A DNA stretch of 64,000 nucleotides, from positions 1 to 64,000 of the forward strand of contig JALQPE010001851.1 of NCBI GenBank assembly GCA_030407315.1, written 5' to 3'. Made by a program: the position numbers and the translations under genes. The DNA comes from Asparagopsis taxiformis (taxonomy: Eukaryota; Rhodophyta; Florideophyceae; Bonnemaisoniales; Bonnemaisoniaceae). Under the pieces are notes generated by a model. The model was not told the DNA's origin. It searched no databases and saw only the letters and a program-made list of their open reading frames with translations. Every line of letters begins with the position of its first letter. Within the stretch, counting starts at the first letter, position 1. This document shows, piece by piece, positions 30,466-55,087 of this stretch.

Positions 30466-30479
30466 CACTACGGTGTTGA
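30466..30479 (+). repeat. Left terminal inverted repeat of giant transposon
   Basis: CACTACGGTGTTGA is the exact reverse complement of 55074-55087. The CACTA start is the hallmark of the CACTA/EnSpm superfamily. Confidence 0.85.
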
Positions 30480-30489
30480 GAATGAAAAA

Positions 30490-30840
30490 AGACAGTAAAT
30501 TTACTGTCTGAGACAGTAAAAATTACTGTCTGGCCAAGACAGTGCGCGGAGACAGTAAAATTTACTGTCTGGAAATTTCAGAATACTGCTGCAGCAGTAA
30601 ACCGGCACGAAATCTGGACAGTACCAAAAACAGTAAAATTTACTGTCCAGAACAGTAAATTTTACTGTCCGGAAGTGTTGCCGCCAGACAGTATGTGCAG
30701 ACAGTACATTTTACTGTCTGAGGCAATGCATTGTATTGTATTACTGCACTGTCTGGGTAAATCTGTAGACAGTAGTGTAGATAGCAAATTGTATTGTCTG
30801 CGGGTAGTACCGTGCATTGGTTCACAACACTGTCTGGTGG
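30490..30840. repeat. Left subterminal palindrome cluster (GACAGTAAATTTACTGTC)
   Basis: At least a dozen CAGACAG/CTGTCTG motifs, many paired as near-perfect palindromes around AAATTT. The same motif family fills 54593-55063. CACTA subterminal repeats are typically transposase-binding sites. Confidence 0.85.
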
Positions 30841-31377
30841 AGTGGACTTGACAGGAAATGTGGTGCATAGTGTTGGTGTGAAGGTAAATACTGGAATGGT
30901 GTGTGGTATTCGACTATAGTAATTGTGATGGTGCTTTACAGATAGTTGGGTGCAGGGAAGCTAGATGTTGAATAGGACGTAGAATGAAAGATTGGGAAGA
31001 TTGAACATATCTGGTTTGTCTCACCGTAAGGAGAGAATGTACAGAGTAGCTATATTATGTTGAGTTTAGCATTTCAAATTATACTTATCTATCTTTGCAT
31101 TGAAAGTGTCGAGTAGGAGACGTCAGTCTGGTAGCGAGGTGTGGTATGCACAGGACGTGGGTGGTGGCAAAGGAAAGAATACGCACCATCCACCACTAAA
31201 TTATGAAAAATAACCGTTACGGAGCACTGGGAAGCATTATTATTATGTAGAGTAGAACAGGATGGATGCATCCACTGGAATGATATTTGCTACAACACTG
31301 CTGTACTAAGCGTGACATCCTTCCTTCAAAGCACTTCTCCACTTCTCCTTTTAGCAAACTCCAATTGCAAGTTCAAG
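30841..31377. other. Region upstream of the coiled-coil gene
   Basis: AT-richer non-coding DNA, presumed promoter and 5' region. No specific site recognised. Confidence 0.35.
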
Positions 31378-32899
31378 ATGAATCCCGAAACGTCCGTAAG
31401 CATCGCCGCATTTTCCGAAATAACGCGTGAGGGCTTTTCGAACATCACTGCAGAGCTGAAAGCCCTAAGTGATAAAATGGATGCCGTCGAGAAGAGCACC
31501 ATTCAATTACGCGAGACTCTCGGAAATGTCGCCAAGACTGTCTCCATGCTAAACACCGATCTGCAGGAGGTCAAGAGCATCGTCGATGGGCTTCTGAGCC
31601 AGGGACAAGGACATCCGAAGAAGATCGCCTCCGAGAAGGACAGGGAACGTCTCCGCATTGCGCAGGAAGAAATCGTTCACGTTCGAAATGGTGTGTGCTG
31701 TGCTGTGTGCTGTTGTTCCAACGTACACGAAGGTAATGGTGGATAAGAGGGATAGGCATTTCAACGGATGCCAGCTAATCAATACGCTGATGTTCGCCAG
31801 GCAGAGCAATGAGCGAAAGGATGTGTTCAATAGGACGCTTGCCGGCCGGAACCACATTGAATTGCGCTGCCAAGTTGTGACCTCTTTAATCAAGAATACG
31901 TGTCAAAACAATTCTTTCAGAGAGGGAGGAGACCGTTCCAGCTCCAATGGAACGTCGGAAGGTATCGAACGGTGGAGGGCGCGGGGGTATGTGACTACCG
32001 GGACCATTGAGGAGACAATTCGCGGAACGGACTCTGCTCGCATGGATGGAATGCATGGGACGTCCGAGGCAAGTGATGGGGCCGCTCGAAAGCACAAGCG
32101 AAGAAAGGTTGGTGACAATGGGCCGTTGCACAGAAAGGAGGTAGGCATCACTGTGACGAAATCGGCACTGACGGCAGTGACCGGGTTTATGAACAAGTCC
32201 AGAGATCATGTGCGAAACCGGTTCATCCGAGATCTTGGATTCGTTCTATACAGTGGGTTTCAAGGTTCAGTCCGAATGGAGCATCATTTGCACGACGGTG
32301 GGCTGGACATTGAGTCAGTTCCAAGTCTGTACTCGGCGCAGAGGAAAATGAATGCAGCGGAGCGTGCAGCAATGGATGACAAGAATATGAAGATTCTTCG
32401 CGACTTCATTGCGTTGCGAAAAGAAATGCTATTCAAAGTCGAGTACGAAGTTCAAATAATTGGAGAACCGGACAAGAGGTTTTTGACTAGGAGGATCAAT
32501 TTAGTAGAGGTTGCACTGAACTTTGCAGTCGCCTACACGCAATGTTCTGATAAGAACATGTTCCTGCGACGTTCAGAATACTCCTTGCAATTCATCTACA
32601 TACTTGCATACGGGTTCCGAACGATTTTGAAATTTCAAAGTGGAACAGAGGTGGAAGGAGCGCAAATCCGGGAAATCAATGAAGCAGTGAAACTGCTTCT
32701 TCCCGGGGAGCGGGTGAGTAGTCGGTTCATGAATGAGGAGGTTTTGACTATATCGCGTGATAGATATGAAGAACTGAATGTAGACGATGGGGGGGAATCA
32801 GTGCTGGAGGAGAGCTTCAGGTCTATGGAAGAGGACGGAGGAGATGCAGAATATGTGAAGGTATTCGTCGATGATGAAATCGAGAATGAAGGGGAGTAG
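31378..32899 (+). CDS. Coiled-coil nuclear-type protein, family copy A (frame change near 31690)
   Basis: From ATG 31378 the first frame gives about 105 residues with a coiled coil (ITAELKALSDKMDAVEKS...). Coding then moves to another frame that runs to 32899. The change near 31690-31735 could be a very short intron (GTGTGC...CACGAAG) or a one-base error. The rest has a conserved block after CQLINTLMF, a basic patch KHKRRK that may be a nuclear localisation signal, and a C-terminal half with SALTAVTGFMNKSR and KLLLPGERVSSRF. The same blocks occur in copy B (61970-60327): CQLVNSIF, SALRALTKFFNNSR, IPGGELLSSF. No known domain is recognised. It is convergent with the Tudor-like gene, 275 bp apart. 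Confidence 0.65.
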
Positions 32900-33174: not shown

Positions 33175-34536
33175 TCATTTTTGCTCCGGACTGCAGGTGG
33201 CAGGTGGAGGAGAGGGAGGGTGTGTACTGTCTGAATCCGCATTGAAGCCAAGACGAGAGATAGCCTCATAGCCAATGTCTTCAAGCTCCTGGCATGTAGT
33301 AGTACCACTGAAAATACAGCAAGGTAAGCGTAGATGTAGTGTACCAAACGTCTCTGCGGTTGATAGAGGCTGGAAAGTGCTGTAACAAGCTCGGCGCTGA
33401 ATACGTCTCCACAGTAACGAAAACGTTGCTCCATAGGTAACAGTAGCCTTATCACGTAGGTGGAAAGAGTCCACGATGCTAGACTGTGATAGTTGGCTAA
33501 GACATAGGGGATGTAAAAATGTATTGTTGACGTGGTCAAACTCGTAGGAGTCTCTGCAAAGAACTGTCATACGTTGGTCTGGGCTGGACAGGACGTAAGC
33601 AGATGAGCCGACGAGAAATGCGGAAGAAGGAGCATCATGAGAGCAATCAACGTCGACTAGATTTCCTAAAATTCGGACAATCGATGAGCTGCCTCCATCG
33701 CGTTCCGCCCTGCTCTTCACCAATATTTTCTGGAACCCGTGTTGCGAGGTACCTATGGAGTCACATAGTGCCTGAAAGGTGGGGAAAATGATGGAAAGAT
33801 CCGACTCATTTCCAGAGGGAAAGGTGATGTCCTCAAAGGACGGCTGGAAGAGAACGTCACGATTCTCTTTCGCCTTGCATTGAATGGCAATAGTGCGGAA
33901 TTGAGCAAGGGAGCAGTCGGCCTGTACTCTGATTTCTTCTTGCGATGTTTGTCGCATTCCCCTGGAGTGCTCGGATTTTGTCATCCGGAGGGAGAGGGGC
34001 TTGTCCGTGTACACACCAAGCTTCTGAAACAGAATGCTACATACAGTCAGAGCAGAGGAGGTCATGGAACTGTTGGAATCGAATGGAGGGGGTAGAGGAT
34101 GTTTGGCAGCTGACTCCAGCTTTTCCAATCTTGCCAGCATTTCTGCTACGGTCTTCTTCATTTGATCCGCAGTGCAATCTTGAAGGATGCCGCGGTGGCG
34201 GTGGCGAGTGTGGTCAATGCCGTAGTCCGGGTCTCTCTCTGCTGGGGATGGAGGTGAGTCCATACTGCGAAGCTCACCACTTCGCCACGGGAGAACCCTT
34301 CCGGAATCCTTGTCGACGAGCTCGTTACGATCTGAAATCTTGACTTGAGAAAGGGTAGAGTCGAAACCATATTCAGCTTTGTATTCGAGCAATGCATGGA
34401 GGAATGGGTCTGTTTCAGTCTTGACCTGAGTAATTTCCTTGACGATTGCAGACCACCACACAATTTTTCGTTTCCTCCCAAACGGCCGAAGTTCCCATTG
34501 AACTTCTATAACGTCGTTTGGAGCGAGAGGAAGCAT
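33175..34536 (-). CDS. Tudor-like N-terminal protein, family copy A
   Basis: An intact 453-residue frame from ATG. Residues ~1-60 (VIEVQWELRPFG...VWWSAIVKEI) resemble the small beta-barrel of Tudor-type readers, where an aromatic WW precedes a V-x-x-I strand. A short helix (KKTVAEMLARLEKLESA) follows, then a conserved C-terminal domain. That domain is shared with copy B at 58467-60206: LLSIIFPTFQALCDSIGT against YDVYPSLHSAMHGTG, FLVGSSAYVL against SMSIGSSMFCAL, and a shared LPCCIF/VPYVLI strand before a helix near the end. The Tudor call is by pattern only. It might read a mark made by the element's methyltransferase or SET domain (inference). Confidence 0.6.
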   Translation of the reverse strand: MLPLAPNDVIEVQWELRPFGRKRKIVWWSAIVKEITQVKTETDPFLHALLEYKAEYGFDSTLSQVKISDRNELVDKDSGRVLPWRSGELRSMDSPPSPAERDPDYGIDHTRHRHRGILQDCTADQMKKTVAEMLARLEKLESAAKHPLPPPFDSNSSMTSSALTVCSILFQKLGVYTDKPLSLRMTKSEHSRGMRQTSQEEIRVQADCSLAQFRTIAIQCKAKENRDVLFQPSFEDITFPSGNESDLSIIFPTFQALCDSIGTSQHGFQKILVKSRAERDGGSSSIVRILGNLVDVDCSHDAPSSAFLVGSSAYVLSSPDQRMTVLCRDSYEFDHVNNTFLHPLCLSQLSQSSIVDSFHLRDKATVTYGATFSLLWRRIQRRACYSTFQPLSTAETFGTLHLRLPCCIFSGTTTCQELEDIGYEAISRLGFNADSDSTHPPSPPPATCSPEQK

Positions 34537-35049: not shown

Positions 35050-38000
35050 ATGGAAGGAACGTTCCACAATCACGGTGAAAAGCACGACGGATGGGTGTTC
35101 ATCGACCCCAATCAAGTCAGCAAATTCGTATCGATTCGCGATGTTGATGCAAGTCATGTGGAAGCGCTCATGGAGAGCATTCGCAACAGCGGTTATGACA
35201 CAGCTCATCCCGTGACTGGCAGGTTTCGAGAAGGCGTTCTGGAGATATTGGATGGAGCGCACCGCTGCATGGCAATTGTACGTGGAATGGAGAAGGGCGT
35301 CTTTCCTCCTGGCGTTACGATTCCTATGCGAGAAGAGTCTATCGTGGCGGACACCAACAGCAGTACTGCTGTTGTGCTGGACCGTGTGAGAGCGACGACA
35401 TCCAACGACATTGCAGGCCTGCAAAGGCGCATGATGTTTGTTGAGTATCTGATGATCGCCGTTGATCTCAGAGACGAGTACTGGGTCCAAAACGGAAAGG
35501 ACAAGTACGCTCATATTTCGTCTGTGAGGATGGCTGATGTGTTGGGCTGGATCAAATCCTGCGATCCAAGCGGCCAAATTGCTTCAAGCCTGAGTGGTAA
35601 ACCGCAGTACAGCTCATGCATGTCTATCCTGGCTGTGCTTCGGCCGTATCACCGAGCAGAAGATTCGAGTGCGATTGATTTGCGTCTGTGGCAAATGTTT
35701 TGTCATGCATGGGGACTCAATGCAGAGATGGGTGATTCTCCGAGGATGGTTGAGTTTCCGAAACAGGTGGGGGTGACTAGTTCTCGTGCCGTCGAAATGT
35801 TTGGCAAGACACCCCGCGGAGAATTGTCCTCTCCACTGAACCGCGAACTGCTTTCGAGCAGGTACTTTCTGGACGGCGCTACATCCGACATGCAAGATTC
35901 TTTGCAGGCTAGCCAGAAGCGGTTCAGGAGGCTGATGGTTATGATGTGCCAGTGTATCTTGGCTATTCGCAGTAAGGAGATGGGCAGTGTGCCATCTAGG
36001 CGGGCCAGAGCCACATCCGGGGCCATTGGTGGTGGTGGAATGGTTGGAATTGCAACATCCAGTGCGCAAGCCAACCAGCTTGGATTTGTTGTCGACCGTG
36101 TGTTAGCTGCGTGGGATACCGGGGCAAGAGTGTTGGGGTATGAGGATGTTGAATCGATGTGCTGGCCGTTCATGGTATTCGATCCTGCGAGCCTTTGCTT
36201 CAGGTCACTCCCGAATCGGTCTGATGGCTGCGCGGTCGAGGAGCATCGGAAAAACCTGACCATTGTCCCGAAAACTGTAGACAGTGAAAACGGGTTCTGT
36301 GCCGACCTTCCAGTGGCTGTGGATGCAAGGCTGCGATCATTGACAAGCGCCTTCCTGCTGTCGATACGCCAATGTGTCACTGAGGTGAATGTGTTCGCCG
36401 AGCGTGGTCAGCTGATGCAGAGACTTCGAGCCTTGCTTTTCGACACTCCTGACAAGTTCGGATTGAACTCGTTCATGCGAGCCAAGTTGAACACGTCTCA
36501 TGCCCTGGATGGTCAGAGGAGGCTGAAGGCTTGGTTATTGCGAACCCGAGAGCAACGAAAGCTTCCTCTGACCATGGATGAGTTGCACAGTCTTGAGGAT
36601 ACGCCCGAGCCTGGCATCCTTGAAGGTGCACCTGCGCAGATGGAAATATCCGCAGCAGTGCCAAACAATGGCAGCGAGGATATAGAAGAGGATAGTCTGG
36701 AGCCACAGAGGAAGAAGGCTAGGCTGGAGCGCGGTGGTGGAGAGGACGATAATGCGGCGGTTGCTAGCGAAACAGCAACAAGAGAAGGTGCGGCCGAGGA
36801 TGACGCTATGGAGGTTGACACTGTATCGCCTACAGAAGCACCGCTCGTTGACGTCGGAAAGGAAACCAAGCCAGAATATGTCACCAAGCTGGAAGCTGTG
36901 ATGGGGCGTTACATTCACACTGTGAATTGTGACGCCACTGATGTAGCCAAAGAGGTGGAGGACAAAATTAGTTTCCTGGAAGATGGCGTGTTGGAGGACA
37001 GTGTTCAGCTTGTGCTCACTGATCCTCCATTCAACACGAGGCGGGAAGGCGGCAGAGAAAACTCGGAGTACGATATTCTGGAGCCGGAAGAGTTGGCGAG
37101 TGTTGCGTGTGAAATAGTTCGAGTTCTTCGGCCTGGCGGTCATGCTCTGATCTATTCCAGCGTGCGCCAACTCGTGGCATGGATGGATGCAATCAGAAAT
37201 GCCGAGCCTGGCAAGATGATTGTGGACAGTGTTCCAGTCGTGCTATCTCGCCGACCACACAGCTTTACGTCCAATCCATCGACGAAAACGTGCACACTGC
37301 ATAATATGCACGATTTCGTTATCCATGCGTATAAGCGGGGGAAGGGTATGGCTGCATACGATATGGTGGATTACAGGTTGCACAATCCGGACATATCGAG
37401 GCACCCTGGGTTCACCAACGCGATTGACAACGTTCCGAGGTTGTCGGCTGGTGAAGCTCAATACGATGGGCAGAACAACCGACTGCGCCATGAGCAGAAG
37501 GCGTTGACCACTCTTCGTGAGCTTCTGGAACGATTTTCGAAGCAGAACGATATCGTGATGGATTTCTTCTCGGGAACATACAGCACAGCCATAGCGTGTA
37601 TGACGTTGAGGGATGGTACGTATCGTCGGTTCATTGGGTGTGAGAAGGAAAAAAGGTGCCACGATGCATCGCAGGAGTGGATACTGCATGCTTTCGTCAG
37701 TGAGGTGAAAGCCGGGCGATATGGGGGGATCTTGCAGCGTGAGGTGGAGAGTATTCTTGGGGACGAGTCGGTACCGGTCACAGGAAAAGCTCCAAGGCTT
37801 CGTCAGAAGCACATCTCAGATGCACCAGAAGGTTTCCCTGCTGTGACAGCATTGCCGAACCATCTGCTTGTGTTCGTTGCGTCAATGAAGAAGGACGGGT
37901 CTATGCTTCACAGATTGAGCGGGGTGCCTATGGACCAGTGGCCGGCCGAGGACATGCACTCGTTTTGGAGCATAGACCCGGACGCGATTCTGGCTGCTGA

Positions 38001-38517
38001 TGCCGCATTCTACGGTGTCTATGTTTCGCAATCGGAGGTAAGAGGTGGTGGGTTTGGCGTATTCGCGGCGAAGAAACTGAAGAAGGGGACGGTCATTGGC
38101 TGGTACAACGGGACGATTTTCTATGCGAAGATTCGAGACTCGGAACCGCAGAGATCAGTGATGTACGGCCCGGAAGGATTTGGGTGCACAGGAGAGAGGT
38201 TCCAGGACTACAACATGGAATTGGAAACCACGTACATAGGGAGGGGTGCACCTGTTCGGAAGGTCTGGCTCGTTCCAGCGGTCTATAATTGTACCAGCTA
38301 CCTCAATGATTGTCGGGTCATTGACGGAACGGAGAAAGCGACCGAGGTGAGTCGAACACAGTCAGCCGAGTTTCGACAAGGCGATGCCATAGACAAACCG
38401 GACTTTGCTTCAAATATCAAGAATCCCCATGCTGTCAAGGTCGTTCTGACCAGAGACGTTGAAGCTGATGAGGAGATATTTGCCGACTATGGTAGAAAAT
38501 ATTGGCCAGCTAACTGA
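35050..38517 (+). CDS. ParB-like / DNA methyltransferase / SET-domain fusion protein
   Basis: An intact 1,155-residue frame; the ATG at 35050 is preferred because it sits in GCCATGG. Residues ~10-100 carry a ParB/Srx-like fold with DGAHR at 68-72. A long middle region ends in an acidic, Lys/Arg-containing linker. A DNA amino-methyltransferase follows with DPPF at 658-661 before the SAM-binding DFFSGT at 838-843, the order of beta-class N6-adenine or N4-cytosine enzymes. The last ~180 residues form a SET domain (GGGFGVFAAKKL near 999, YLNDCR, EIFADYG near the end), a protein-lysine methyltransferase fold. ParB-methyltransferase fusions are known from bacterial and phage DNA; the added SET domain points to a eukaryotic chromatin role. 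Substrates are unknown. Confidence 0.85.
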   Translation: MEGTFHNHGEKHDGWVFIDPNQVSKFVSIRDVDASHVEALMESIRNSGYDTAHPVTGRFREGVLEILDGAHRCMAIVRGMEKGVFPPGVTIPMREESIVADTNSSTAVVLDRVRATTSNDIAGLQRRMMFVEYLMIAVDLRDEYWVQNGKDKYAHISSVRMADVLGWIKSCDPSGQIASSLSGKPQYSSCMSILAVLRPYHRAEDSSAIDLRLWQMFCHAWGLNAEMGDSPRMVEFPKQVGVTSSRAVEMFGKTPRGELSSPLNRELLSSRYFLDGATSDMQDSLQASQKRFRRLMVMMCQCILAIRSKEMGSVPSRRARATSGAIGGGGMVGIATSSAQANQLGFVVDRVLAAWDTGARVLGYEDVESMCWPFMVFDPASLCFRSLPNRSDGCAVEEHRKNLTIVPKTVDSENGFCADLPVAVDARLRSLTSAFLLSIRQCVTEVNVFAERGQLMQRLRALLFDTPDKFGLNSFMRAKLNTSHALDGQRRLKAWLLRTREQRKLPLTMDELHSLEDTPEPGILEGAPAQMEISAAVPNNGSEDIEEDSLEPQRKKARLERGGGEDDNAAVASETATREGAAEDDAMEVDTVSPTEAPLVDVGKETKPEYVTKLEAVMGRYIHTVNCDATDVAKEVEDKISFLEDGVLEDSVQLVLTDPPFNTRREGGRENSEYDILEPEELASVACEIVRVLRPGGHALIYSSVRQLVAWMDAIRNAEPGKMIVDSVPVVLSRRPHSFTSNPSTKTCTLHNMHDFVIHAYKRGKGMAAYDMVDYRLHNPDISRHPGFTNAIDNVPRLSAGEAQYDGQNNRLRHEQKALTTLRELLERFSKQNDIVMDFFSGTYSTAIACMTLRDGTYRRFIGCEKEKRCHDASQEWILHAFVSEVKAGRYGGILQREVESILGDESVPVTGKAPRLRQKHISDAPEGFPAVTALPNHLLVFVASMKKDGSMLHRLSGVPMDQWPAEDMHSFWSIDPDAILAADAAFYGVYVSQSEVRGGGFGVFAAKKLKKGTVIGWYNGTIFYAKIRDSEPQRSVMYGPEGFGCTGERFQDYNMELETTYIGRGAPVRKVWLVPAVYNCTSYLNDCRVIDGTEKATEVSRTQSAEFRQGDAIDKPDFASNIKNPHAVKVVLTRDVEADEEIFADYGRKYWPAN

Positions 38518-39318: not shown

Positions 39319-39792
39319 ATTTTACCTCACGTGGTCTCTGTTCAGGGTATACCCTGTATATATATAGGTAGCCTAGTGTAGGTGGGAAGATAGACGAAAA
39401 TTCTACCAATAATTTATCACAGTGACGGCTCTCGTAGTCGAAATGTGCGCGTTGTCAAGGGTTGAAACTAGTCTCCCCCTACGGCCTAGCTAGTAAAATC
39501 ATACAACGTTGTAGACTAATATTAAAAAGTAGCAAGCAATCTGCTGAGTAGCACTAAACTATGAGATGAAGGACAGATGTATAGATGAAAACGAAAAGTG
39601 GGCTAAGATAACAATGTTGAGATGAGAAAGACAGAACTTTATAGCAGGGAACAGTAGTATAGGTTTTAATACTTCTGATATGCTATCTATTGCTCCTATC
39701 GTACTTGTAATATTCGACGGTGTGGATGTGGTCCGTGAGGACGTCCTTCTCCGTCTTCAAGTAGATGTGGCCGCGCGTGGGCAGGCCATAGA
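39210..39792. other. Spacer between palindrome block 1 and ParB/oxygenase copy B
   Basis: No gene. Positions up to about 39318 pair with 44280-44390 as an inverted repeat (reported separately). The rest is the presumed 3' region of the minus-strand gene. Confidence 0.4.
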
Positions 39793-40515
39793 CTAACTTT
39801 TCGCCCGCAGGAATATCTCCGCGCTGAAGCCGACCCCGTAATGGTAAAGGTCACCGCGACCAACCAATACGGAATAGGGTGGCACATAAAGCCTATGAAT
39901 GGGAACCTTCCACATATCGGCGTCCGGATTGGCCAGGCATACATGACTATAAGGGGCAGCTACTATAGAGAATCCATCTGCTCCGCTCGACATCATGAAA
40001 TATGATGGAGACTCGGTAGGTCCTGCAACACGACTCGTTGATACCTTGAAGTCCGTGTGCCCATCCTGGTCCGCAGCCCCATCTGCTGTAAGAAGCAGCC
40101 GCAATCCTGTCTTCGGGAAGAAGACAGGATCCTCACCCTCCATTCCCAACTTCAAGAACTCCGCACAAACACCAAGAGCAAGCTCTGCCACCAACTTGTT
40201 CTTATACATCTCCAAATTCCCCTCCTCCAACTTGTCGCACAACTCACGCCGCGGCAGAGAGAGGCGCCCACGACCACCATCGATGCGGTCCTTCGCATCA
40301 CCCACGTTGTGGATGAACTGCCACGGCGAAGGATCGAAGCCGGGCTTTGCGAAAGCTGGCGGCTCGTCCTGTGGCTCCCTGTCGTCATCGTTAGAATCAG
40401 ACTGCTGGGAGGGTTTTTCAACCTCCTCAACCAGCGGGAACTGCCTAGCGAAGTGACCGAACAGCTCATGCGTCGCATTCCAGCCGTGGACGATGCCAAC
40501 AGGCCTTCCAAACAA
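39793..40515 (-). CDS. 2-oxoglutarate/Fe(II)-oxygenase-like domain, C-terminal part of copy B
   Basis: A 240-residue frame continuing the ParB-like protein that ends at 40466. It holds TGLRLLLTADG, an HTD triad part (H codon 40057-40059, D codon 40051-40053), SPSYFMMSSGADGFSI, and PPYSVLVGRGDLYHYGVGF with the second candidate His at 39841-39843. HxD...H with a distal basic residue is the metal and 2-oxoglutarate signature of double-stranded beta-helix oxygenases, a fold that includes DNA and histone demethylases. The blocks recur in the copies at 44847-45314 and 62663-63921. Family identity is inferred from the motif alone; a specific substrate cannot be named. Confidence 0.55.
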   Translation of the reverse strand: MFGRPVGIVHGWNATHELFGHFARQFPLVEEVEKPSQQSDSNDDDREPQDEPPAFAKPGFDPSPWQFIHNVGDAKDRIDGGRGRLSLPRRELCDKLEEGNLEMYKNKLVAELALGVCAEFLKLGMEGEDPVFFPKTGLRLLLTADGAADQDGHTDFKVSTSRVAGPTESPSYFMMSSGADGFSIVAAPYSHVCLANPDADMWKVPIHRLYVPPYSVLVGRGDLYHYGVGFSAEIFLRAKS

Positions 40516-45314: not shown

Positions 45315-46600
45315 ATCGCCTTACCTAGCTCCAGAATCAGCTTGTTCCTGTACTGCCGCGCGCTTTCTTGCTCAAGGTCATCGCAGATGCTTTTCCGGTC
45401 CGTCTTGAATACACCAGTGCTGTCTTTCGGTCGAAGTGGTTTCCACGGGTTCTTCTGACTTGCACTTGAGCCACTTGTAGTACCTTGGAATGTGCTGGCC
45501 ATCTGTGTGAATAACTCGTGCGTAGCTGCTCCCACTGTAGTAGAAGAGAAAATGTCTTGCAACACCACGTAACCAAGCTCGTCGATCATTCTTCTCTGGT
45601 AGCTGAAGTATTGTTGGCTTTCACAAGAACCGAGGGGACATACCAAAGTAGAGTAGCCTGCAGCTGCTTCCATTATCTCCGTCCGGATTGTATCAATGTC
45701 TTCTTCTGTGATATAATACTTCATTCTCGAGTTGGAAGGAACGCATAAAGGCAGCTTCTCAGGTATCTCCTCTGCGAATGTGCGGTCTGGAAGGGAGTTT
45801 TCTTGCTCGTCAGTGAAGAGTGGTGCTTCTTCTCCAGTCGTTCGTTTTCTTGCATTGACTCTACTCTTCTTTTCCCGGGGAGGCCCAATCTCAATGTTGT
45901 CATCCGGCGTATTGGGCTCAGAAAACTTCGCGCTAGTATCTTCCCTTCTTCGCTTCTTATGCAACCTGGACTCGTTTTCATCGCCGCTTCCACCAGAACT
46001 CCTGCTTCTTCCCGAATTCTCCTTGTCCACTTCGGCCGGGCTAGTGCTGTTAGTTTCTGGTGTCCTGATTCGAAGTTTCAATATCACAGAGCGGTTCTGC
46101 GCATCTCCAGCTTGTTGTCCAGGCGTGTCTATGTCCATGCGACCACTATTGTCCAAGTTGATATCCAGACTTTGCGTATCGCCGCTTTGTTTCCTTCCCT
46201 GAGGAAGATCTTCTCTGACAATCCTTCCCGGCGAATTATCCCTGGCACGACTTTCCCGCTCTGCCCTTGAAGCTGAAAGACGTTCCTGTTCTTTTTGGAG
46301 AACAGCAAGACGTTCTGCTTCCCTCTTCTCAGCTGCTGCAAGACGCGTGGCAGGACGTTCCTGTCCTCCCTCTTTTGCTGCGGCAGGACGGTCTTCTGCT
46401 TCTTTCGGGGTGCTCAGAGGTGCCTCTTCTATTGCTTTCGTCGCGACAGCAGGAATCACTTCTTCAGCCACCACATTTGGAGGAATTTCCTGTTCTTCCT
46501 CCACAACAGCAGAAACTTCCTGCTCTACTTGGGCTTCGGCAGATACTCCTTCTTCTGCTTGAACAGGACCAGGAGTTTCCACCGTTTCCTTCTCTGTAGA
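45242..46600 (-). CDS. Linker and pre-oxygenase region of ParB/oxygenase copy C
   Basis: A frame of about 450 residues. A Glu/Ala/Val-rich, partly coiled-coil N-part contains AAEKREAERLAVLQKEQERL. Basic clusters (KKRRRED, KKSRVNARKRTTGEE) and the family block SRMKYYITEEDIDTIRTEI...RMIDELGYVVLQDIFSS...ATHELF follow. The last block aligns with copies B and E just before the oxygenase-like domain. This frame connects the ParB-like frame (to about 46600) with the C-terminal domain. Both junctions look like one-base shifts. Confidence 0.6.
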   Translation of the reverse strand, partial: STEKETVETPGPVQAEEGVSAEAQVEQEVSAVVEEEQEIPPNVVAEEVIPAVATKAIEEAPLSTPKEAEDRPAAAKEGGQERPATRLAAAEKREAERLAVLQKEQERLSASRAERESRARDNSPGRIVREDLPQGRKQSGDTQSLDINLDNSGRMDIDTPGQQAGDAQNRSVILKLRIRTPETNSTSPAEVDKENSGRSRSSGGSGDENESRLHKKRRREDTSAKFSEPNTPDDNIEIGPPREKKSRVNARKRTTGEEAPLFTDEQENSLPDRTFAEEIPEKLPLCVPSNSRMKYYITEEDIDTIRTEIMEAAAGYSTLVCPLGSCESQQYFSYQRRMIDELGYVVLQDIFSSTTVGAATHELFTQMASTFQGTTSGSSASQKNPWKPLRPKDSTGVFKTDRKSICDDLEQESARQYRNKLILELGKAICAENLKLGFGREEAVVFQKRVFV

Positions 46601-47885
46601 ATGTCATGCGATTCCGTTCCTTCTCCTCCTCCGCTTTCGTCTCCTTCATTGCCTTTGTCCCGGTAGCATATTCCAGTTTGTCGTAAAAACTGTTTGTAAA
46701 CATCCCGTTCTTGGTTCTCAGACTGCTTCTGTCTACCACGTCGTCATGAAAGTCGACAAGGACGAATACAATGCGCTCTCCAATGCGATGATCATTATCC
46801 CCGACCTCCTTCGCGTTTTCTGCTGCCAAATCCGTTCGCACGAATTCCTCCATCGTTGCAGAGTTCAACCATTTGCGGACGACCTCTGCCATATCATAGA
46901 TGGCCAACAGAGCCAGTAGCCAAGTGCGCATCGTGAACGGACTTCCGCTTCCGATATTTCTGACAAGTCCTCTCTTCCTCCTCATCCTTGTCCACGACGC
47001 TGTCATCTCGAGCACAAACCACTGGAACCACTCCTTATCGCGCGTCCCGCGTCCGTCCGTGCCATTGCGGAATATTGCGTTATTGACAAGATCGAGCACG
47101 CACCCGTACATATCGGCAGAGTCAATTCGAGAAAAGTCCGGATCTCTTCCCTCGGTTCTTGCATCCTCGATTTCTCTGTTCCTATCCAAAGCATTGTAAA
47201 CGCTAGGGATAGAGCTCCAGTACACGAAAGCAACGCTGTCTGTGCGATTGAACCCCTTCGCAATGTTGATGTACTGCCTATACGAGTTCTCCGAACGGTT
47301 CCTGTCGGACGGCAGAATATAGCTCACTTCTTTCAGAATAGGAATAAGCCGGACAACAGGAAGATCCATCTGGTTGGAAAACCTGAGAAACTCTATGACC
47401 GCACAGACATTGTCGGCAATGCTCACAGAAGCGACATCGTGAGTTTGTATATTGGCTTCGAGAGACAGTTTCAGAACCTCCAGCGCATCGAAAATTAGAC
47501 GCCCGTTCGGCGCAATCAACTGTTGTACCCAAACCAATTCCAAGGAATCCCTGTTCTTTCCTGAGTACTTCTCCAGGCATAGTTGCAGAGCAGCTATGCG
47601 ATGAGAGCCATCGATGCAGTAAAACTCGTCTCCTTCGTTATCTTCCATTTTGCAGACTGTAATCATAGTTCCAGTGGTAGAGAAACCTCTATCCATGAAA
47701 ATGCTGGCCAGTTCGTTTACACGACCCGGTCGCACCAAACGGGAGGTCACTGTCGGAAACTTCACTTTGCGAGGATCAACTTGCACTTTAGAAGAGCTGT
47801 ACTGAGCAATAGTGATGCTTTTCTCTTCAGCAGAAGGAGAATTGCTCTTCTCCGCTGTAGTATTCATGATACTATTGTCTCCCAT
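46464..47885 (-). CDS. ParB-like domain protein, N-terminal part of copy C
   Basis: The start is taken at ATG 47885 (MGDNSIMNTT). The ParB/Srx-like domain carries CIDGSHRIAAL. The helical region ADNVCAVIEFL, YINIAKGFNRTDSVAFVYWSSIP and VLEMTASWTRMRRKRG matches copy B block for block. The coding trace moves to another frame near 46600, so the true gene runs 47885-44847 and would give a protein of about 1,000 residues. Overlap of the frames (46464-46600) is by-product reading. ParB-like proteins bind palindromic DNA and use CTP in bacteria. Whether this eukaryotic relative does so is unknown. Confidence 0.7.
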   Translation of the reverse strand: MGDNSIMNTTAEKSNSPSAEEKSITIAQYSSSKVQVDPRKVKFPTVTSRLVRPGRVNELASIFMDRGFSTTGTMITVCKMEDNEGDEFYCIDGSHRIAALQLCLEKYSGKNRDSLELVWVQQLIAPNGRLIFDALEVLKLSLEANIQTHDVASVSIADNVCAVIEFLRFSNQMDLPVVRLIPILKEVSYILPSDRNRSENSYRQYINIAKGFNRTDSVAFVYWSSIPSVYNALDRNREIEDARTEGRDPDFSRIDSADMYGCVLDLVNNAIFRNGTDGRGTRDKEWFQWFVLEMTASWTRMRRKRGLVRNIGSGSPFTMRTWLLALLAIYDMAEVVRKWLNSATMEEFVRTDLAAENAKEVGDNDHRIGERIVFVLVDFHDDVVDRSSLRTKNGMFTNSFYDKLEYATGTKAMKETKAEEEKERNRMTFYREGNGGNSWSCSSRRRSICRSPSRAGSFCCCGGRTGNSSKCGG

Positions 47886-48715
47886 TGTAATCCCTGCAAT
47901 CTCAGTTCGTTCAATCGGTTCTCTGTTCAAATGTTGTGTAGACGATGAAATCCACAATTGTGGTACCTCCGAGTGCGCTTCCCGTCTCTCAGCTTCCTCT
48001 CATATACTGTCCGGACAAGACATTCCCTACCTACCTTCAGTCCTGATGAACCTTACGCTGCACCCGCTCAGCACCTCTGACTCTACCTGATCCTGATACC
48101 TCCACAAAGCGTTTAGCCCTTTCCATCAATCTACACCTAATAGTATGTACCTCTAGCGCATATAATGCAATCGAACCCGTTTACCTCACCACGTCAATTA
48201 TCATTCATATTCCAACAACCTATTTCATCCACACTCTCCACCTCGCTTCTTCTTCCGTACCATTGATTCCTATCAATCGATTCTACGTGAGTTTTATACA
48301 TTTACTACGATCCACCTCTCCTACAAGTCTGAAAAATTCATTTCTACACTAACTTTTGCTACTCACAAATAAACGGTTCCCGTGCAGGCCACTGCTTGAA
48401 TTTCTTCCTATTGGCGTACTCGGCTGCAAAGGATTCATAGACTATTTAAACGGTGATCATATAAATGGTTTTCAATGTGCTCCAATGGACAATACACCAA
48501 AGAACATCAATATGAATTCATTTCAACTACCTATTCACTACTGCGATTCAGTTTTCTTGCATACCAAATCTCATTGCGTTCCTACCCTAGTCGATTCAAA
48601 ATGCTTCCTCTTCGTCAGTTGATCAATATTCCTTACAACGAGCAGGTCCTCTGGACATCCTAAAGTTGGTTACTTAACCTTAACAATCGATGAATTTGCT
48701 GTAATGAAACGTTTT
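47886..48715. other. Spacer upstream of copy C
   Basis: No supported gene. Short open frames at 48356-48663 have no recognisable features. Presumed promoter of copy C plus spacer. Confidence 0.4.
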
Positions 48716-48867: not shown

Positions 48868-48987
48868 CATACCTCCCTCCATCCTCTCAGATCCTCTCCC
48901 CACTACTTTGCACCAATCCACCAACGCCCTAGAGTGTACAATTCATATGTGATGCATCTGGTTATTCATTTTATTCTTCCCTAAAAA

Positions 48988-50160
48988 TCATGCAGCCCTC
49001 GGTGGAAATCCGTCTCGCCTACATAGTGCATATATCTCTCCACCCTCCAGCAGTCCGGGTCCGTGCCTTACCTCCCTCATGTTCTCATCATATTCGCATA
49101 CACTCCCATTGCAATAGTGCATACCAAACACCTCAGTGACTCCCTCACTCATCTCCACAATTACTGTTCGTCGCCTCTCTTCGACCTTGAACACTCCTTC
49201 ATCAGTTTTTTGCAAACCCAGGCAAACTCCATAAGCTGTACCTTGCTCATCTCTCGCACTCTCGTTCCTCAGGATAAAGAACGCTAGAACAATAAAAAAC
49301 CGCGGTTCATAATTAATTCTTCCCCGCATTATCTCTGATGTGAGACGAGACGCCGGGTACAGAATCGCTTGTGAAGTTGCACCATCCTCACATGTCCTCT
49401 GTTCAGGGCAAACAGCATGGATGATAGCTCCTGATTCTAGAGAGCCAGACCTCTGCACTGTTTTCCTTCCCCACTCTGTCGTAGTGCTTCTAGAAACTCT
49501 TCTCACCCATTCGGCATACTTTCCACACCCGCTTGTTCCGCTTCCGTACCTTTCGGTAAAGAACCGTTTGAAAACACCTACAGCACCCTCTGCCATATCA
49601 CATTTTCCATTCATGTACTCCTTGACCTCGTCAATAGATATACCTCCATGCCCTCTCCACGTCACAATTTCACCATCCGCCGACAATATCTTTCCTCGAC
49701 GCTGGGAGAGAAGCTGGAGAACCGGTTCCTGGAAGCAGTTTTTCACTACCTCGTCTTCCACATCTATTTCTCTCCCTAGCTCCTGTGAAAGAACGTTGAC
49801 CATTTGAGAGCATTCGGACGAGGACCAATGTTGTGGCTCCATGCCGATTTCGCGCAAAACAATGGCCACTCTCGTCTGCCAGTCATCCGCAAGAACTAAT
49901 TCCAGCGCTGAAAGCTGTTCGCTTTGGTGATTGGACATTCTCACACCTTTCTTCAGCGGCTGATGCATCCGTTCGAATATAAGCTCCTGCACGTGCTTCA
50001 CAGAGCCGTAGGCAGGAAGCGTATGAACACAAAACTCGACAAGACGATGAACATTAGGCTTGTCCAAATGTGCTCCTGCTCCCTTCACTTTCCGACAATA
50101 CTCATTCAACGTCTCCACGTAGTCTACAGGTTCTTCCCAGAATGTATTCATTCCTGCCAC
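48988..50160 (-). CDS. Transposase of giant transposon, C-terminal part
   Basis: Third frame of the transposase. It begins at about MNTFWEEPVDYVETLNEYCR and contains NVHRLVEFCVHTLPAYGS and ELIFERMHQPLK. These resemble the segment after the catalytic core of CACTA/Plavaka transposases, where a His-rich helix and an FERxHxxLK motif occur. The remaining ~300 residues are specific to this element. Joined to the preceding frame by a one-base shift near 50165. Confidence 0.6.
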   Translation of the reverse strand: MAGMNTFWEEPVDYVETLNEYCRKVKGAGAHLDKPNVHRLVEFCVHTLPAYGSVKHVQELIFERMHQPLKKGVRMSNHQSEQLSALELVLADDWQTRVAIVLREIGMEPQHWSSSECSQMVNVLSQELGREIDVEDEVVKNCFQEPVLQLLSQRRGKILSADGEIVTWRGHGGISIDEVKEYMNGKCDMAEGAVGVFKRFFTERYGSGTSGCGKYAEWVRRVSRSTTTEWGRKTVQRSGSLESGAIIHAVCPEQRTCEDGATSQAILYPASRLTSEIMRGRINYEPRFFIVLAFFILRNESARDEQGTAYGVCLGLQKTDEGVFKVEERRRTVIVEMSEGVTEVFGMHYCNGSVCEYDENMREVRHGPGLLEGGEIYALCRRDGFPPRAA

Positions 50161-51121
50161 CTTCTCCGTCAGCCGTCTCTACTTCATGTGGACCGTCTTT
50201 CCACCATACGGGCATGAAACTAATACACGAAACCAGCTTCTGAAACATCACTACTAGTTTGACGGCCCCATCAAATTTTTCACGATGACCTTCCCCTTTC
50301 CCATCCATCATTCGAGCTGCGTTTTCGAATGCCATAGGTGCTATCAGCAGCACACTGAATATGTCACTCATGTTCATGGAAAGCAGATTGTTGGTTCCAA
50401 ATAAACGGTTCTGCCTTCCCATCCTGAACTTCTTCAGAGCGCCCAGAATTTGCAATTCAGCTACCTCTCGAATTCGTGGGCTGGCAGCTGAAATACAAGC
50501 GTTCAGTACATCTTGTGCCAGTCCAGACAATAGATGGTCAGGTGCTATCACTGCGGAACGGTACGGGTCAAAAATTGCTGGGACAACTGAAACTCCGTTT
50601 TCCGTCTTCGGTACTTCTTCCTGCACTGCTTCCAAGGAAGTGCTCAGGACATGAAATGGTAAATCTTCCCCTTCTTCTGCAGCCAGTCCGAGAGTGCGAA
50701 GCTGGGTTTCTGTGGCATCCTTACGTGTCGATGCATTCCGATACTTGCTCCTGGCATGCGTCGATGTTTGCCCGTTCACTACCGAAGTGTATGCATTCTT
50801 CGTGCCACCAGTACTGCTCAGGTCATATTTGCGGAAACTGCAGATGTGGCACGGAGAGTTTGATGTGTGTCCAAGAACATCCAGGGTATGTGAAACTGCA
50901 GGATAGTCTCCAATGCTCCCCACTGGGTCTAGAAATACCACAACATCTTCTCCCTCTGCATTTTTCGTTGGGAAACCCTCTGTGCTTCCCGCACTATATC
51001 TTGAACGATATATCGCAATACACAATTTGTGGACACTCCCGGAGGTGGCAAACCAATCACTCGAACCGCTTGGTAGCTTCCCCTTTTCCGAGGCGGTAGA
51101 TTGAGAGGTAACATATAGCAT
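50102..51121 (-). CDS. Transposase of giant transposon, middle part
   Basis: Second frame. VVVFLDPVGSIGDYPAVSHTLDVLGHTSNSPCHIC matches the family pattern D...GDxPA...PCxxC (second catalytic Asp region and a zinc-binding CxxC). A helical region follows. Long stretches around it read through the first and third frames only as by-products. The shift from the first frame lies between about 50950 and 51040. Confidence 0.65.
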   Translation of the reverse strand: MLYVTSQSTASEKGKLPSGSSDWFATSGSVHKLCIAIYRSRYSAGSTEGFPTKNAEGEDVVVFLDPVGSIGDYPAVSHTLDVLGHTSNSPCHICSFRKYDLSSTGGTKNAYTSVVNGQTSTHARSKYRNASTRKDATETQLRTLGLAAEEGEDLPFHVLSTSLEAVQEEVPKTENGVSVVPAIFDPYRSAVIAPDHLLSGLAQDVLNACISAASPRIREVAELQILGALKKFRMGRQNRLFGTNNLLSMNMSDIFSVLLIAPMAFENAARMMDGKGEGHREKFDGAVKLVVMFQKLVSCISFMPVWWKDGPHEVETADGEGGRNEYILGRTCRLRGDVE

Positions 51122-52791
51122 CCACCAAAACTTCCCTTCCTGCTTGTGAATGGTTCAAAGTCATCCGTGTAAAGGAGAAATCGGTAAACAAAGTAGTTTC
51201 GACCATCCTCCAGCTTTCCCCAACATGGTGCATCTTCTCGCGGAGACGCTGGGTGCCATTGCGACCTGTGGTCTCCGAAACCATCCGAGAACACCCCTGA
51301 AACACGAATTTCTTCATAGTTGGGGCTTCCTAGTCTATCGGGCGGGTTTCTGGCTTCAGCAAAGCTCGCGCCCGGTGAAAAGCAAAGTAACATGGTGGAT
51401 GCTTCTCCGACCTGCTCTTTCAAATACCTGTTCACCAATACGACGTGTGGAACAATATCACCCTCTTCCATTCCAATTGGTAATAGAACGGTTATCACGT
51501 CCCCAGCTCGTGTTCCTTTTCCCTTGGCTCCTGCTCCGATTACACATTGCGATATCGCTCGCAGAGCATGCTGCCTCTCCCATTCCAATAGATGTGACAT
51601 TCGCGGCTGCAGATATTTTTCGACATGCACATCATGCTCACCGTCGTGTCGAGCCTCATAGGTAACTATGGTCCTAGCATGAAGTTCCCACAACGACGTA
51701 ACCGCCACTCTTCTCCTCTTCGGTTTCCCACCATCTCTGTCATTCTTCCTGAACCCTTTTGCTCTTTCGATGACGGCAACCTGACGAGCTCCTGGATGAC
51801 ATCGGATTCGAATTGCTGTTCCATCAGGTACATAAATGTGCTTCAAACCCTTTTTCCCATCGCTGTCAATGGGAACAACTGCTGTGCGAACGAATGGGTC
51901 GCTCAAAACACCCCTCCTGCACTTTGCAATGAACGAATCTTCAATGCTGCACTCTGCGGTTGATTTTTCTCCTTCCGAGCTTCGATTGTTCGCATCACTG
52001 CGGAATGCTTTAAAGATTGGTCGAGTCTGGACATCTTTCAGAGCCCATGTGCTTGGGAGTACAATACGAACTTTCGCCATTCCTCCACAATTGTCTCTGT
52101 CATCTGTTGTTCCACGGGTTCCTACTGCACCTCGATGCTGTGCAGCTCTTGCTCCGCTCTTTCGAAGGTCTATCGGAAACTCGATGTCACAGCTCTTTGC
52201 ATAGCAGTGTTTCCTCAAGAATGGTAGTATCTTCTGTCGCATCACAGAGTCCGACGGGACGTGCTCACTTGGATCTCTGCGGAAATTCATTCCGAACAGG
52301 GTACCTTCATAGTGGGCTCTTGTCATTCTTTGAGTTCCACTCAGCTGAAGAGCCCCATACATCGCAGGCCATTGTAGTAATGCCTTGAAATCACCACATG
52401 CTTCATCCCCAGCATTTCGGTCTATCGGGCCTCCAGTTGAAATGGAATCAGAACCTCGTCCGGTTGCTTCTTCCGATTCCATTAGCGTGCTCGATGCTAC
52501 GTAGATGTCACTTCCAGCTTCATCGTTGTTGCTGTACACATCAATACAACCTTCTATTGTGTCACCCATAGGGATTGGGGACTCCAATAGGTCATCTGTG
52601 GTACACTCACGTCGTAGCTCATTACCTCTCGGGATTTCTTTGTTCATGCAGGCTGCATCACTGCTGCGGATTTCTCCCTGCAGTTTCCCAGGAAGCTGTT
52701 TACTGGGACTGGCCACATTGAGTGAATCGAATCTCGCCTTTGTCCTACGACTTGTGGTTTTCTTTCGAATAGGAGTCCGTCTCGGAGCCAT
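50929..52791 (-). CDS. Transposase of giant transposon, N-terminal part
   Basis: A 620-residue frame from ATG. A basic N-terminus (RRTPIRKKTTSRRTKAR) is followed by a low-complexity region and then a conserved core: VFSDGFGDHRSQWHP, LLYTDDFEPFTSRKGSFGGCYMLPLNLPP and VIGLPPPG. The TDDFxPF...GG(C/V)YxLPLNLPP pattern is characteristic of the CACTA/Plavaka-type transposase group, with the first catalytic Asp in TDD. It is the only candidate for mobilising this element. Together the three frames cover 52791-48988 (about 1,260 residues), which is in the usual size range. Confidence 0.7.
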   Translation of the reverse strand: MAPRRTPIRKKTTSRRTKARFDSLNVASPSKQLPGKLQGEIRSSDAACMNKEIPRGNELRRECTTDDLLESPIPMGDTIEGCIDVYSNNDEAGSDIYVASSTLMESEEATGRGSDSISTGGPIDRNAGDEACGDFKALLQWPAMYGALQLSGTQRMTRAHYEGTLFGMNFRRDPSEHVPSDSVMRQKILPFLRKHCYAKSCDIEFPIDLRKSGARAAQHRGAVGTRGTTDDRDNCGGMAKVRIVLPSTWALKDVQTRPIFKAFRSDANNRSSEGEKSTAECSIEDSFIAKCRRGVLSDPFVRTAVVPIDSDGKKGLKHIYVPDGTAIRIRCHPGARQVAVIERAKGFRKNDRDGGKPKRRRVAVTSLWELHARTIVTYEARHDGEHDVHVEKYLQPRMSHLLEWERQHALRAISQCVIGAGAKGKGTRAGDVITVLLPIGMEEGDIVPHVVLVNRYLKEQVGEASTMLLCFSPGASFAEARNPPDRLGSPNYEEIRVSGVFSDGFGDHRSQWHPASPREDAPCWGKLEDGRNYFVYRFLLYTDDFEPFTSRKGSFGGCYMLPLNLPPRKRGSYQAVRVIGLPPPGVSTNCVLRYIVQDIVREAQRVSQRKMQREKMLWYF

Positions 52792-54592
52792 CTTGATGTT
52801 TTTGTTCTTTTCTTCTTCGCTCAGTTTTGTTGCATAGAATACAACTCTAAACTTCTATGACATGACTACTATCTCAATACAGTACTACTACTTTTAACCG
52901 TTACGAAACCTTTCCAGGCTTTCATTCGATCCAATGAACTGGTTCACCACAATGCTTTGCCCTATGCTCATTGCTTTATGCACATTGATTGCTATTTCAT
53001 CCGGACTCAACATCGTTTTGCTATCTTGTATCGCATCCCCTAACCACAAACCCAGCCAAGATGTATCCATTTCCGGAAAACGGCCGTTTATTTCGCAGTG
53101 ATGCTCTAGGCACTAATACTGAATCTGATTTTCTCATACACGTACTTCCTACTCGTATACTCTACCATTTTCGGCCCTATTTACAAGTTGAAAGCACAAT
53201 CTCTCGTTGAATCGTACTCGGTGTGATATCTTAAATTAGCATAAATTTATATATTGCAATGCAGATTCACTGCTCGCTTGCAACATGAAAATTATAAAAT
53301 TTCTCCCACACTGCTGTTTCCTAGCCGCCCACATCCACGTGGCCCGCTTTGACTGCCTGCCAAGTGTGCTCAGAGCATGCAATGACGTCATCGATATATA
53401 CCGTCCAAATCATCACTGGAAGCGCGGACTCCTCGTCCAGGAAAGTGCGCCATTTTTCCTACTCCTCGCCTCACCCTTTTCTGTAGGCCCCATATGCTAG
53501 TGTTTTTCCTATATTTCTGTAGTGATGACGTCATTATAGACTAGAGAAGGCGGTAGAAGATACAATAATTTTGCGCCTGTTCTGCCAGGTCATGTGCTTC
53601 AAAGCGTAATTCGCACCCTAGGTATCGTTTTTCTGGGCCTCCCATCGCACCGCTCCGTTTCAAATTCATCCCTCTATTGTTCTCCTACACGTCATTTCCG
53701 CCCGCAGAGTGCTACTTAAACAACAGATTCTGGAAATCCCTGTTTCCATCTTCATATCCGTCGGAAACAAAGCAACAACCCTGGCCGTGGAAGCCGTATA
53801 GATCATCTAAACTGCTTCCAAAGCGTAAGTTTTAGATCATCAATACGGCTTCCAAGGCCAAAGTTGTTGCTTTGTCTCCGACGGATATGAACCATGATGG
53901 TACGTTTCCACAACTCACGCCACTAACCCAGTTTTCTATTTGTTTTCTCTTTCTCAGGTTTCCAGTCGGTGAGTGTTCCACTTCTACTTTCATTTATCTT
54001 TCTCTCTTACCACTTCTCCACTACTTTTCTTTTCTGCCTGTGAGTACATATCTCAATTTGGGATGCAATGGTATTTGTTAAGGTACGTTAGTCTCCTAAT
54101 CACCATCAATTTCCCTCTCCAATTCAACGTCACTAACTTGTTTCCTTTCTCTACATCATTTTTTCTTCTTCTCTTCATTTCCTAGCTTATTCATGCAGCT
54201 CAATCAGTTGATAGATTTCTAGACTTTTCTAGTAGTTTTAGTTTTACTCGTCGGAATAGTGTTAGTTGTAGTAGCATTTTTAACATAGGGATTGTTTATT
54301 CTCAATGTAGCCTGCGCAAATAAACAAATCCAGAGTGAAGCTTCCCATATCGCACCCTCTTAGATTGCTACCTATCCTACCGCGTATACCTCTCGCTAGC
54401 TCATAGTCACTACGAAATAAAAATTCCTAGCCGTACTATTCTGTCCATTCCCATATGAATACCGTCCATGCCCCATCCTCATAGCGCTAGAACTGCCTTC
54501 CTCTACCCCAGAAAGATGCCCACGACAGCGTGACGCTCCATCTCATCCACCACTCCCAGACACCGAATTTTACTATATCAGGACACTACTTT
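52792..54592. other. Non-coding right arm of giant transposon
   Basis: No supported gene in 1.8 kb. It contains the large inverted repeat at 53751-53891 and otherwise AT-rich unique-looking DNA. Confidence 0.45.
53751..53891. repeat. 141-bp inverted repeat (about 60-bp arms)
   Basis: The left arm from TTCATATCCGTCGGAAACAA pairs with the right arm ending TTGTCTCCGACGGATATGAA at roughly 90% identity, with a loop of about 15-20 nt. It could extrude a cruciform or yield a hairpin RNA. Confidence 0.85.
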
Positions 54593-55063
54593 TACTGTCT
54601 CCAGGTGCTGCCCAGGGCTGCAGCACGAAATACTGTCTACAGGTGCTGCCCAGGGCAGCACAAATACTGTCTACAGGTACTGCCCAGGACAGTGAAAATC
54701 ACTGTCTCCAGGTACTGCCCAGGACAGTGCACCGTGTTGGTTCCATCTATTGTCCCAGGCAGCGTATTTCACTATCCGGCCATGTTGCCTTGGCCAATAC
54801 AAAACACTATCCGCCAACACTGCCCAGTACAGTAAATTACATCATATCCAACTATTGAATAAATCATTAATTTTTACTGCATCCATTCACTGCCTCAGAC
54901 AGTACGGTGAGACAGTGTTTTTTACTGTCTGCAGACAGTGTTCCGTACTGTCTGCCAGACAGTGCAAATCACTGTCTCCAGGTGTGGCATTAATTTTCAT
55001 TTGCCGCATAGTGATTTTTACTGTCTCAGACAGTAAAAATCACTGTCTCGCAGTACTGTCTGA
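54593..55063. repeat. Right subterminal palindrome cluster
   Basis: Many ACTGTCT/AGACAGT motifs, plus a local tandem CTGTCTACAGGTGCTGCCCAGG unit at 54596-54726 that is not seen on the left side. It mirrors 30490-30840. Confidence 0.85.
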
Positions 55064-55073
55064 GGCCCCCTTT

Positions 55074-55087
55074 TCAACACCGTAGTG
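55074..55087 (-). repeat. Right terminal inverted repeat of giant transposon
   Basis: TCAACACCGTAGTG, exact reverse complement of 30466-30479, followed by AG as on the left outer side. Confidence 0.85.

Follow-up and report, generated by a model that had tools for sequence, protein, structure and literature searches.

What is the 24.6-kb stretch between positions 30,466 and 55,087 of Asparagopsis taxiformis contig JALQPE010001851.1: one transposon that carries genes for marking DNA and chromatin, or several unrelated pieces? The DNA analyzed here, called the window, is 64,000 nt long and the stretch in question spans 24,622 bp of it (30466..55087). A first-pass annotation, made from the letters alone, had described a single CACTA-ended unit inside a gypsy element, with genes for writing, possibly erasing and possibly reading chromatin marks. 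Our analysis identifies it as one giant red-algal transposon of the CACTA/EnSpm-like, cut-and-paste type that has been active recently. We moderately favor the overall reading that it also bears a cassette by which it would mark itself and counteract silencing.

The ends carry the identification of the element. The sequence CACTACGGTGTTGA is found exactly at 30466-30479 on the forward strand and at 55074-55087 on the reverse strand, forming perfect 14-bp inverted CACTA ends, and the termini of the element are CACTACGG. With up to two mismatches allowed, the end 14-mer had three matches in the window against 0.27 expected, and none of 100 shuffles reached three. Just inside each terminal repeat lies a subterminal GACAGT/ACTGTC array, the left one (30480..30915) holding a 20-bp palindrome at 30490 and the right one (54538..55073) a 16-bp palindrome at 54924; perfect 16-bp palindromes occur at both ends, the 20-bp one at the left end. 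Counted together, the two hexamers number 16 within 450 bp at the left end and 17 within 550 bp at the right end, compared with a shuffle mean of 0.49 (maxima of 4 on the left and 3 on the right in 500 shuffles).

The insertion site can be read as well. To the left lies a fragment of a gypsy reverse transcriptase (30063..30463, reverse strand) and to the right the upstream part of the same reading frame (55090..55487, reverse strand), both recognized by eye and through the empty site. The dinucleotide AG flanks the element on both sides, at 30464..30465 inside a GA run and at 55088..55089. When the flanks were joined minus one AG, this empty site matched five places in the genome at 100% over 75 of 75 nt, and 19 of the best 40 scored places (266 first-look candidates) had at least 95% identity. 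A 2-bp target site duplication (AG) is thereby implied, its register being ambiguous in the GA run. Matching 2-bp duplications were present in six of the nine insertions examined (the window copy, C74, C64, C19, C104 and C436), the probability of six or more by chance being ~4e-6, the C64 call resting on a contig with only two flanking bases; none was present in C44, C64b and the possible pair C10. It is virtually certain that the 24.6-kb stretch is one mobile unit. The first-pass annotation was thus right about the single unit with CACTA ends and the clean split of a gypsy element, and the further copies with the same ends and gene set that it proposed to look for exist in the genome; the ends do not belong to separate small elements around host genes.

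In the 141.5-Mb assembly the exact end 14-mer occurs 1,431 times (722 + 709), and its reversed control not at all. Two other copies, C44 (27.2 kb) and C74 (25.3 kb), hold all six genes of the window element in the same order, and reduced copies of 19.3 kb (C64) and 15.5 kb (C64b) were also found; the DNA identity of copies is ~96-99.5% per aligned block. C19 and C104 (L019-L022), each 14,445 bp long, share these ends, retain no more than diverged PO2 remnants inside and were apparently mobilized in trans. At C4, C60 and C65 (L024, L025 and L026), ends of like orientation, separated by ~6.5 kb, enclose a PO1 relic and the loci share one flank, an arrangement that is a recurrent composite or non-autonomous derivative. 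Counts across the genome cover PMS, PO2 and TP and score the best candidates only; they give a minimum number of intact copies, not the proportion that is intact. All of the best scored copies were open and listed at 100% identity: 40 of 40 for PMS (3,822 first-look candidates), 42 of 42 for PO2 (5,134 candidates) and 37 of 37 for TP (2,173 candidates). Since identical paired actin-family matches occur on C171 and C386, some counted copies may be the two haplotypes of one locus. TP was found at the expected distance beyond five of eight sampled PMS copies (of the 40 listed) and not beyond the other three; among the matches listed, the TP-PO2 spacing is 1190-1339 bp in at least 15 pairs and exactly 1339 bp in 12.

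The six genes of the element, CC, TUD, PMS, PO1, PO2 and TP, are each one intronless frame where open, with lengths in C44 of 508 (CC), 453 (TUD), 1155 (PMS), 1086 (PO2) and 1267 amino acids (aa) (TP), and of 1215 aa for PO1 in C64. Small frameshifting indels break CC, PO1, PO2 and TP in the window copy and leave TUD and PMS open; C44 is broken in PO1, and C74 in CC, PMS and PO1. Even so, every gene has an open frame in one or more of the other copies. Introns were ruled out as the cause of these breaks because other copies are open through the same places. In C64b (G000:C64:23100-39100, L017-L018) all 16 indels of PMS are frame-breaking, beside ~20 substitutions, which suggests assembly error there; by the same pattern, sequencing error may also account for some of the breaks in the window copy.

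TP (48988..52791, reverse strand) is recognized as the transposase through its homologs: besides the element's own entry, 20 unnamed relatives share 26-42% identity with it. CxxC, acidic and His positions are invariant in 20 aligned sequences (TP and 19 of the 20 relatives, P0021 being left out); a transposase of the TNP2/CMC type, DDE with a C(2)C motif, would be expected for CACTA/EnSpm. The element has the CACTA terminal inverted repeats, the subterminal repeat arrays and, at 2 bp, the 2-3 bp target site duplication of the CACTA/EnSpm superfamily. The transposase of the first-pass annotation is retained, without its Plavaka label: 0 of 20 sequences (TP and 19 relatives) matched Pfam Plavaka (PF18759) or TNP2, and the termini CACTACGG differ from the Plavaka termini TGT..ACA or CATCA..TGATG given in the cited passages (PMC12730594). 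Separately, the same genome has a 1036-aa open frame (L041:4209-7316, reverse strand) in which Pfam recognizes a Plavaka transposase domain (PF18759, 1.7e-24); the paper just cited deals with Plavaka in fungi (PMC12730594).

Among the cargo genes, PMS (35050..38517, forward strand) joins a ParB/sulfiredoxin-like region to a beta-class DNA adenine methylase with a DPPF motif and to a SET domain. Pfam supports both enzyme parts (PF01555, 2.3e-16; PF00856, 4.1e-6, 27.6 bits against a cut-off of 22.4), confirming that the cargo is of writer type. PHROG profiles agree for the enzyme (phrog_67, 3.8e-23) and for ParB (phrog_1033, 0.003), DPPF and an FxGT-type motif are visible by eye in the methylase region, and NCBIfam methylase models gave matches that fell short of their own thresholds. 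Among named methylases, the closest are adenine-specific and DpnA/CcrM-like, phage adenine methylases being 22-30% identical. The enzymatic identity of PMS is well supported; judged from its sequence, it is very likely a DNA adenine methylase, and its SET domain is predicted, with rather less assurance, to act on a histone. Protein searches with PMS and PO2 (~7,990 candidates scored each) returned only the element itself, and relatives were for this reason taken from its own genome. In viral contigs neither the transposase nor PMS had a relative, and phages had no DNA match to the element.

Those relatives show that the gene set is not confined to one family. The second family's PMS is split by the C436 copy, on both sides of which its parts lie. 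At C2217, a family 2 member has five homologs, all of them single open frames, grouped into 17.5 kb of a 24.8-kb stretch, with identities to the window proteins of 31% (TP), 27-29% (PO), 28% (PMS) and 25% (CC, E 1.7e-11). The fifth is a probable TUD homolog (20% identity, BLASTP 1e-4 in a six-protein comparison), which phmmer ranked first of 201, barely above shuffles. Methylase and SET of the family 2 PMS are both above the Pfam cut-off, the SET scoring 24.6 bits there and 24.2 in family 3. The best 144 matches to the family 2 methylase (2,673 candidates), 50 at 94% identity or more and 94 at 69-89%, all fall outside the 40 listed places of the window-family PMS. PO and PMS homologs also occur in a third family (C2066), whose PMS is 65% identical to that of family 2. 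Gene order differs among the families: the module is kept but is not collinear. From copy number and the TP homolog we infer that families 2 and 3 are mobile units. Beside family 2 on C2217, a fourth PMS-like gene starts in L045 (~2674; 23% identity, E 6.5e-14). The family 3 PO (L043:3-2945, forward strand) has a Cys/His-rich, zinc-finger-like middle stretch, also seen in family 2 and not seen by eye in PO1 or PO2, for which Pfam gave no convincing match.

PO1 (39683..43320, reverse strand) pairs a ParB/sulfiredoxin-like N-terminus with a C-terminus resembling 2-oxoglutarate (2OG) oxygenases, and PO2 (44847..48023, reverse strand) has the same kind of architecture; the 5' ends of both are approximate. 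For the ParB-type region several profiles, individually weak, are concordant and a DGxHR motif is present, although no element gene had a Pfam ParB match above cut-off. PO2 matched GmrSD_N (0.056) and DndB (0.067), the family 2 protein matched ParBc_2 (0.059), and a four-row ParB profile searched against the Protein Data Bank (PDB) had sulfiredoxin as its best match (0.011) and also reached SbnI (0.15). Seven of its 13 PDB matches were sulfiredoxin or SbnI, the rest being unrelated or not judged; that all these profiles belong to one superfamily is in part our assumption. A ParB/sulfiredoxin fold is accordingly a confident prediction for PMS and the PO proteins. At the other end of the PO proteins, an HxD...H...R pattern, which in 2OG-Fe(II) oxygenases sits on a double-stranded beta-helix, is invariant across PO1, PO2 and the family 3 paralog (34-42% identity) and visible in family 2. 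This motif and one weak profile match make 2OG oxygenase the probable, moderately supported identity of PO. The ParB component and the oxygenase-like component of the first-pass annotation therefore stand, the former on concordant weak profiles and the latter on that motif and that match.

How might these proteins work together? The target of the cassette would be the chromatin of the element itself. Recognition of the terminal and subterminal repeats would fall to TP, possibly assisted by CC, and TP would cut at the ends. PMS, once brought to element DNA, would write N6-methyladenine and a histone-lysine mark; PO would oxidize a methyl mark on DNA or chromatin, removing or converting it and so resetting the state. 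The ParB-type domains or CC could direct these enzymes to element DNA, with the palindromic arrays as a possible target. The likely benefit would be that the element escapes host silencing, that its DNA is licensed for the transposase it encodes, or both. We rate a self-marking, anti-silencing function of the cassette as plausible, at slightly under an even chance; the proposal stays conditional, as it was in the first-pass annotation, and is strengthened by the gene set in the second family and part of it in the third. A stricter version, in which the element encodes a closed loop with PMS writing N6-methyladenine and a histone mark from parS-like GACAGT arrays and ParB/2OG proteins removing or converting them, is a speculative one. 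If true, a transposon lineage would carry a complete write/erase system, and this in a genome with no recognizable C5-methylase.

Several results weigh against the reading of a self-marking element. Among the copies read whole, none has all six genes open, and the pooled ratio of non-synonymous to synonymous changes (pN/pS) for PO2 is 1.17 on few changes, giving no purifying signal between copies. By eye, the SET core of PMS is without the NHS motif that we take to be the textbook one. The BLAST match of the family 2 PMS begins only after the ParB region, so that ParB targeting may not hold for PMS in every family. Neither family 2 nor family 3 yielded its ends; around family 2, a search for CACTA-type termini gave no convincing pair. 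AlphaFold models of the ParB regions (three-row alignment) and of the oxygenase-like region of PO2 (two-row alignment) had a mean predicted local distance difference test (pLDDT) of 34.5 and 31.2, respectively, and were left unused. The PO C-terminus had no Pfam match; a two-row profile and a single sequence of it matched only unrelated PDB chains, and the three-paralog profile had a weak sole PDB match, ectoine hydroxylase (E 0.41, 25 positions).

The alternative that survives best keeps the enzymes and changes their purpose: the modification would protect or license element DNA, as a self/non-self label for the transposase or against a nuclease, in the manner of phage methylases, and would not serve anti-silencing. 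The nearest named relatives of PMS, DpnA-type phage and bacterial adenine methylases, speak for it, as do the prokaryotic ParB-adenine-methylase fusions already known, one with nicking activity according to the cited passages (PMC5512222). The SET fusion, however, is kept in all three families and points to chromatin. We regard protection or licensing as a minority possibility, with anti-silencing self-marking preferred.

It is also conceivable, if doubtful, that the PO C-terminus is an unrelated beta-rich domain and not an oxygenase at all. The lack of a Pfam match and the poor model fit such a domain, but the HxD, the distal H and the R are kept in PO1, PO2 and family 3 and visible in family 2, and the GYIVLEDIL-type segment of PO is the part that aligned to ectoine hydroxylase, presumably a 2OG enzyme.

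Weaker still is the view that the chromatin genes are passive cargo, captured by chance and of no use to the element. Transposons often pick up genes, the window copy has four broken ones, and PO2 has no purifying signal. Against this stand the open copies of PMS, PO2 and TP, numbering at least 37-42 per gene, and the pN/pS values pooled against a reference copy, which are 0.13 for TUD, 0.21 for CC, 0.26 for PO1, 0.38 for PMS and 0.53 for TP and, as the comparisons share that one reference copy, are not independent; they indicate purifying selection on CC, TUD, PMS and PO1. A like set in family 2 at ~20-31% protein identity, and at least PMS and PO in the third, further argue that the cassette is not accidental, and passive cargo is improbable.

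Equally improbable is that PO erases 5-methylcytosine in the manner of TET, the role put forward for TET-bearing transposons of fungi in the precedent cited (PMC12730594), since neither PO nor any other element gene matched Tet_JBP in Pfam and the genome gave no match to the C5-cytosine methylase PF00145 (a search that ignores introns, with 10 of 14 controls matched and actin found as positive control). Given this absence, an adenine-based mark is more likely than a 5-methylcytosine eraser; the searches of the genome for MT-A70 and Tet_JBP, whose controls stayed silent, carry no weight either way. The fungal TET/KDZ group, named as a partial parallel in the first-pass annotation, is set aside as a close relative for the same lack of Tet_JBP in the genes and for the host, whose phycobilisome genes point to a red alga and not to a fungus, another alga with phycobilisomes being less likely: 11 of 13 phycobilisome-family matches lie on one contig, C469, read as the plastid genome. 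In the passages cited (PMC8566409), non-CG-biased DNA methylation is reported in another red alga, and H3K27me3 is found on half of the repeats in the red alga Cyanidioschyzon.

The remaining genes and neighboring features can be given briefly. CC (31378..32899, forward strand) has an N-terminus that looks like a coiled coil by eye and a region in common with family 2. TUD (33175..34536, reverse strand) looked Tudor-like by eye, but neither its N-terminal 103 aa (Pfam, PDB) nor the whole frame (Pfam) had a Tudor/Royal profile match, and both the label and the proposed reader were dropped for want of profile support. Partly inverted repeats of ~150-180 bp at 38786-39339, 43526-44627 and 48697-48874 are common to the element's intergenic stretches and other end-bearing loci. 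Two more gypsy elements lie elsewhere in the window, at 9233-16047 (reverse strand) and 18181-24451 (forward strand), with long open pol frames and a C-terminal chromodomain.

How new is such an element? In the open-licence literature, as covered by titles and the starts of abstracts, no transposon with a ParB/methylase/SET protein was described. Giant EnSpm/CACTA families of Chondrus crispus were reportedly presented by Kojima, Bao and Jurka in Repbase Reports in 2013. According to the cited passages (PMC6431247), these families measure 16-20 kb with 4-5 open reading frames (ORFs), so that the first-pass claim of an undescribed arrangement needs narrowing, large multi-ORF CACTA elements being already known. 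The element described here is likewise an enlarged CACTA/EnSpm type of a red alga and differs in its 24.6-27.2 kb and six genes. Judged from these descriptions alone, common descent is likely. The enlarged CACTA elements of Chondrus crispus are, as far as those passages go, the nearest precedent; if they hold the same cassette, the novelty would lie in its identification and conservation and not in the elements.

Other systems share single traits with the cassette. The anti-silencing protein of plant Vandal elements is called VANC, and the Vandal/MuDR anti-silencing proteins are not known to be of the same types as those of the cassette. The likely mode is similar, an element-encoded, sequence-directed control of its own silencing (cited in PMC12730594). 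The fungal TET/JBP-bearing EnSpm, Plavaka and KDZ transposons described in the same passages (PMC12730594) are also cut-and-paste elements with an oxygenase thought to counter silencing, but they belong to another host lineage, and the window element has an oxygenase-like domain that is not TET/JBP by Pfam, a ParB-type fusion, and a methylase and SET in addition. SET-bearing HarbingerS/MuDR elements of Phytophthora likewise place a histone-methylase-type domain on a DNA transposon, although they are of other superfamilies and the cited text mentions no DNA methylase fusion there (cited in PMC12730594). N4CMT of bdelloid rotifers is another eukaryotic protein in which a bacterial-type amino-methylase is joined to a chromatin domain of eukaryotic type; in the passages cited (PMC8885841) it is encoded by the host, its chromatin domain is a chromodomain and its presumed role is to silence transposons, whereas the methylase of the window is transposon-borne and SET-fused. 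Bce_0392 of Bacillus cereus, a prokaryotic ParB-adenine-methylase, combines the same ParB/sulfiredoxin-type and adenine methylase parts but is bacterial, and SET is not mentioned for it in the passages cited (PMC5512222).

Transposons with a single chromatin enzyme are known. A multi-gene kit of adenine methylase, SET and probable 2OG oxygenases across deeply diverged families would amount to a natural, self-contained epigenetic operating system. With the element it can be tested whether mobile DNA is able to place a mark of its own on DNA in a eukaryote, whether N6-methyladenine plays a part in red algae, and how ParB and methylase domains of bacterial type came to be reused on eukaryotic chromatin.

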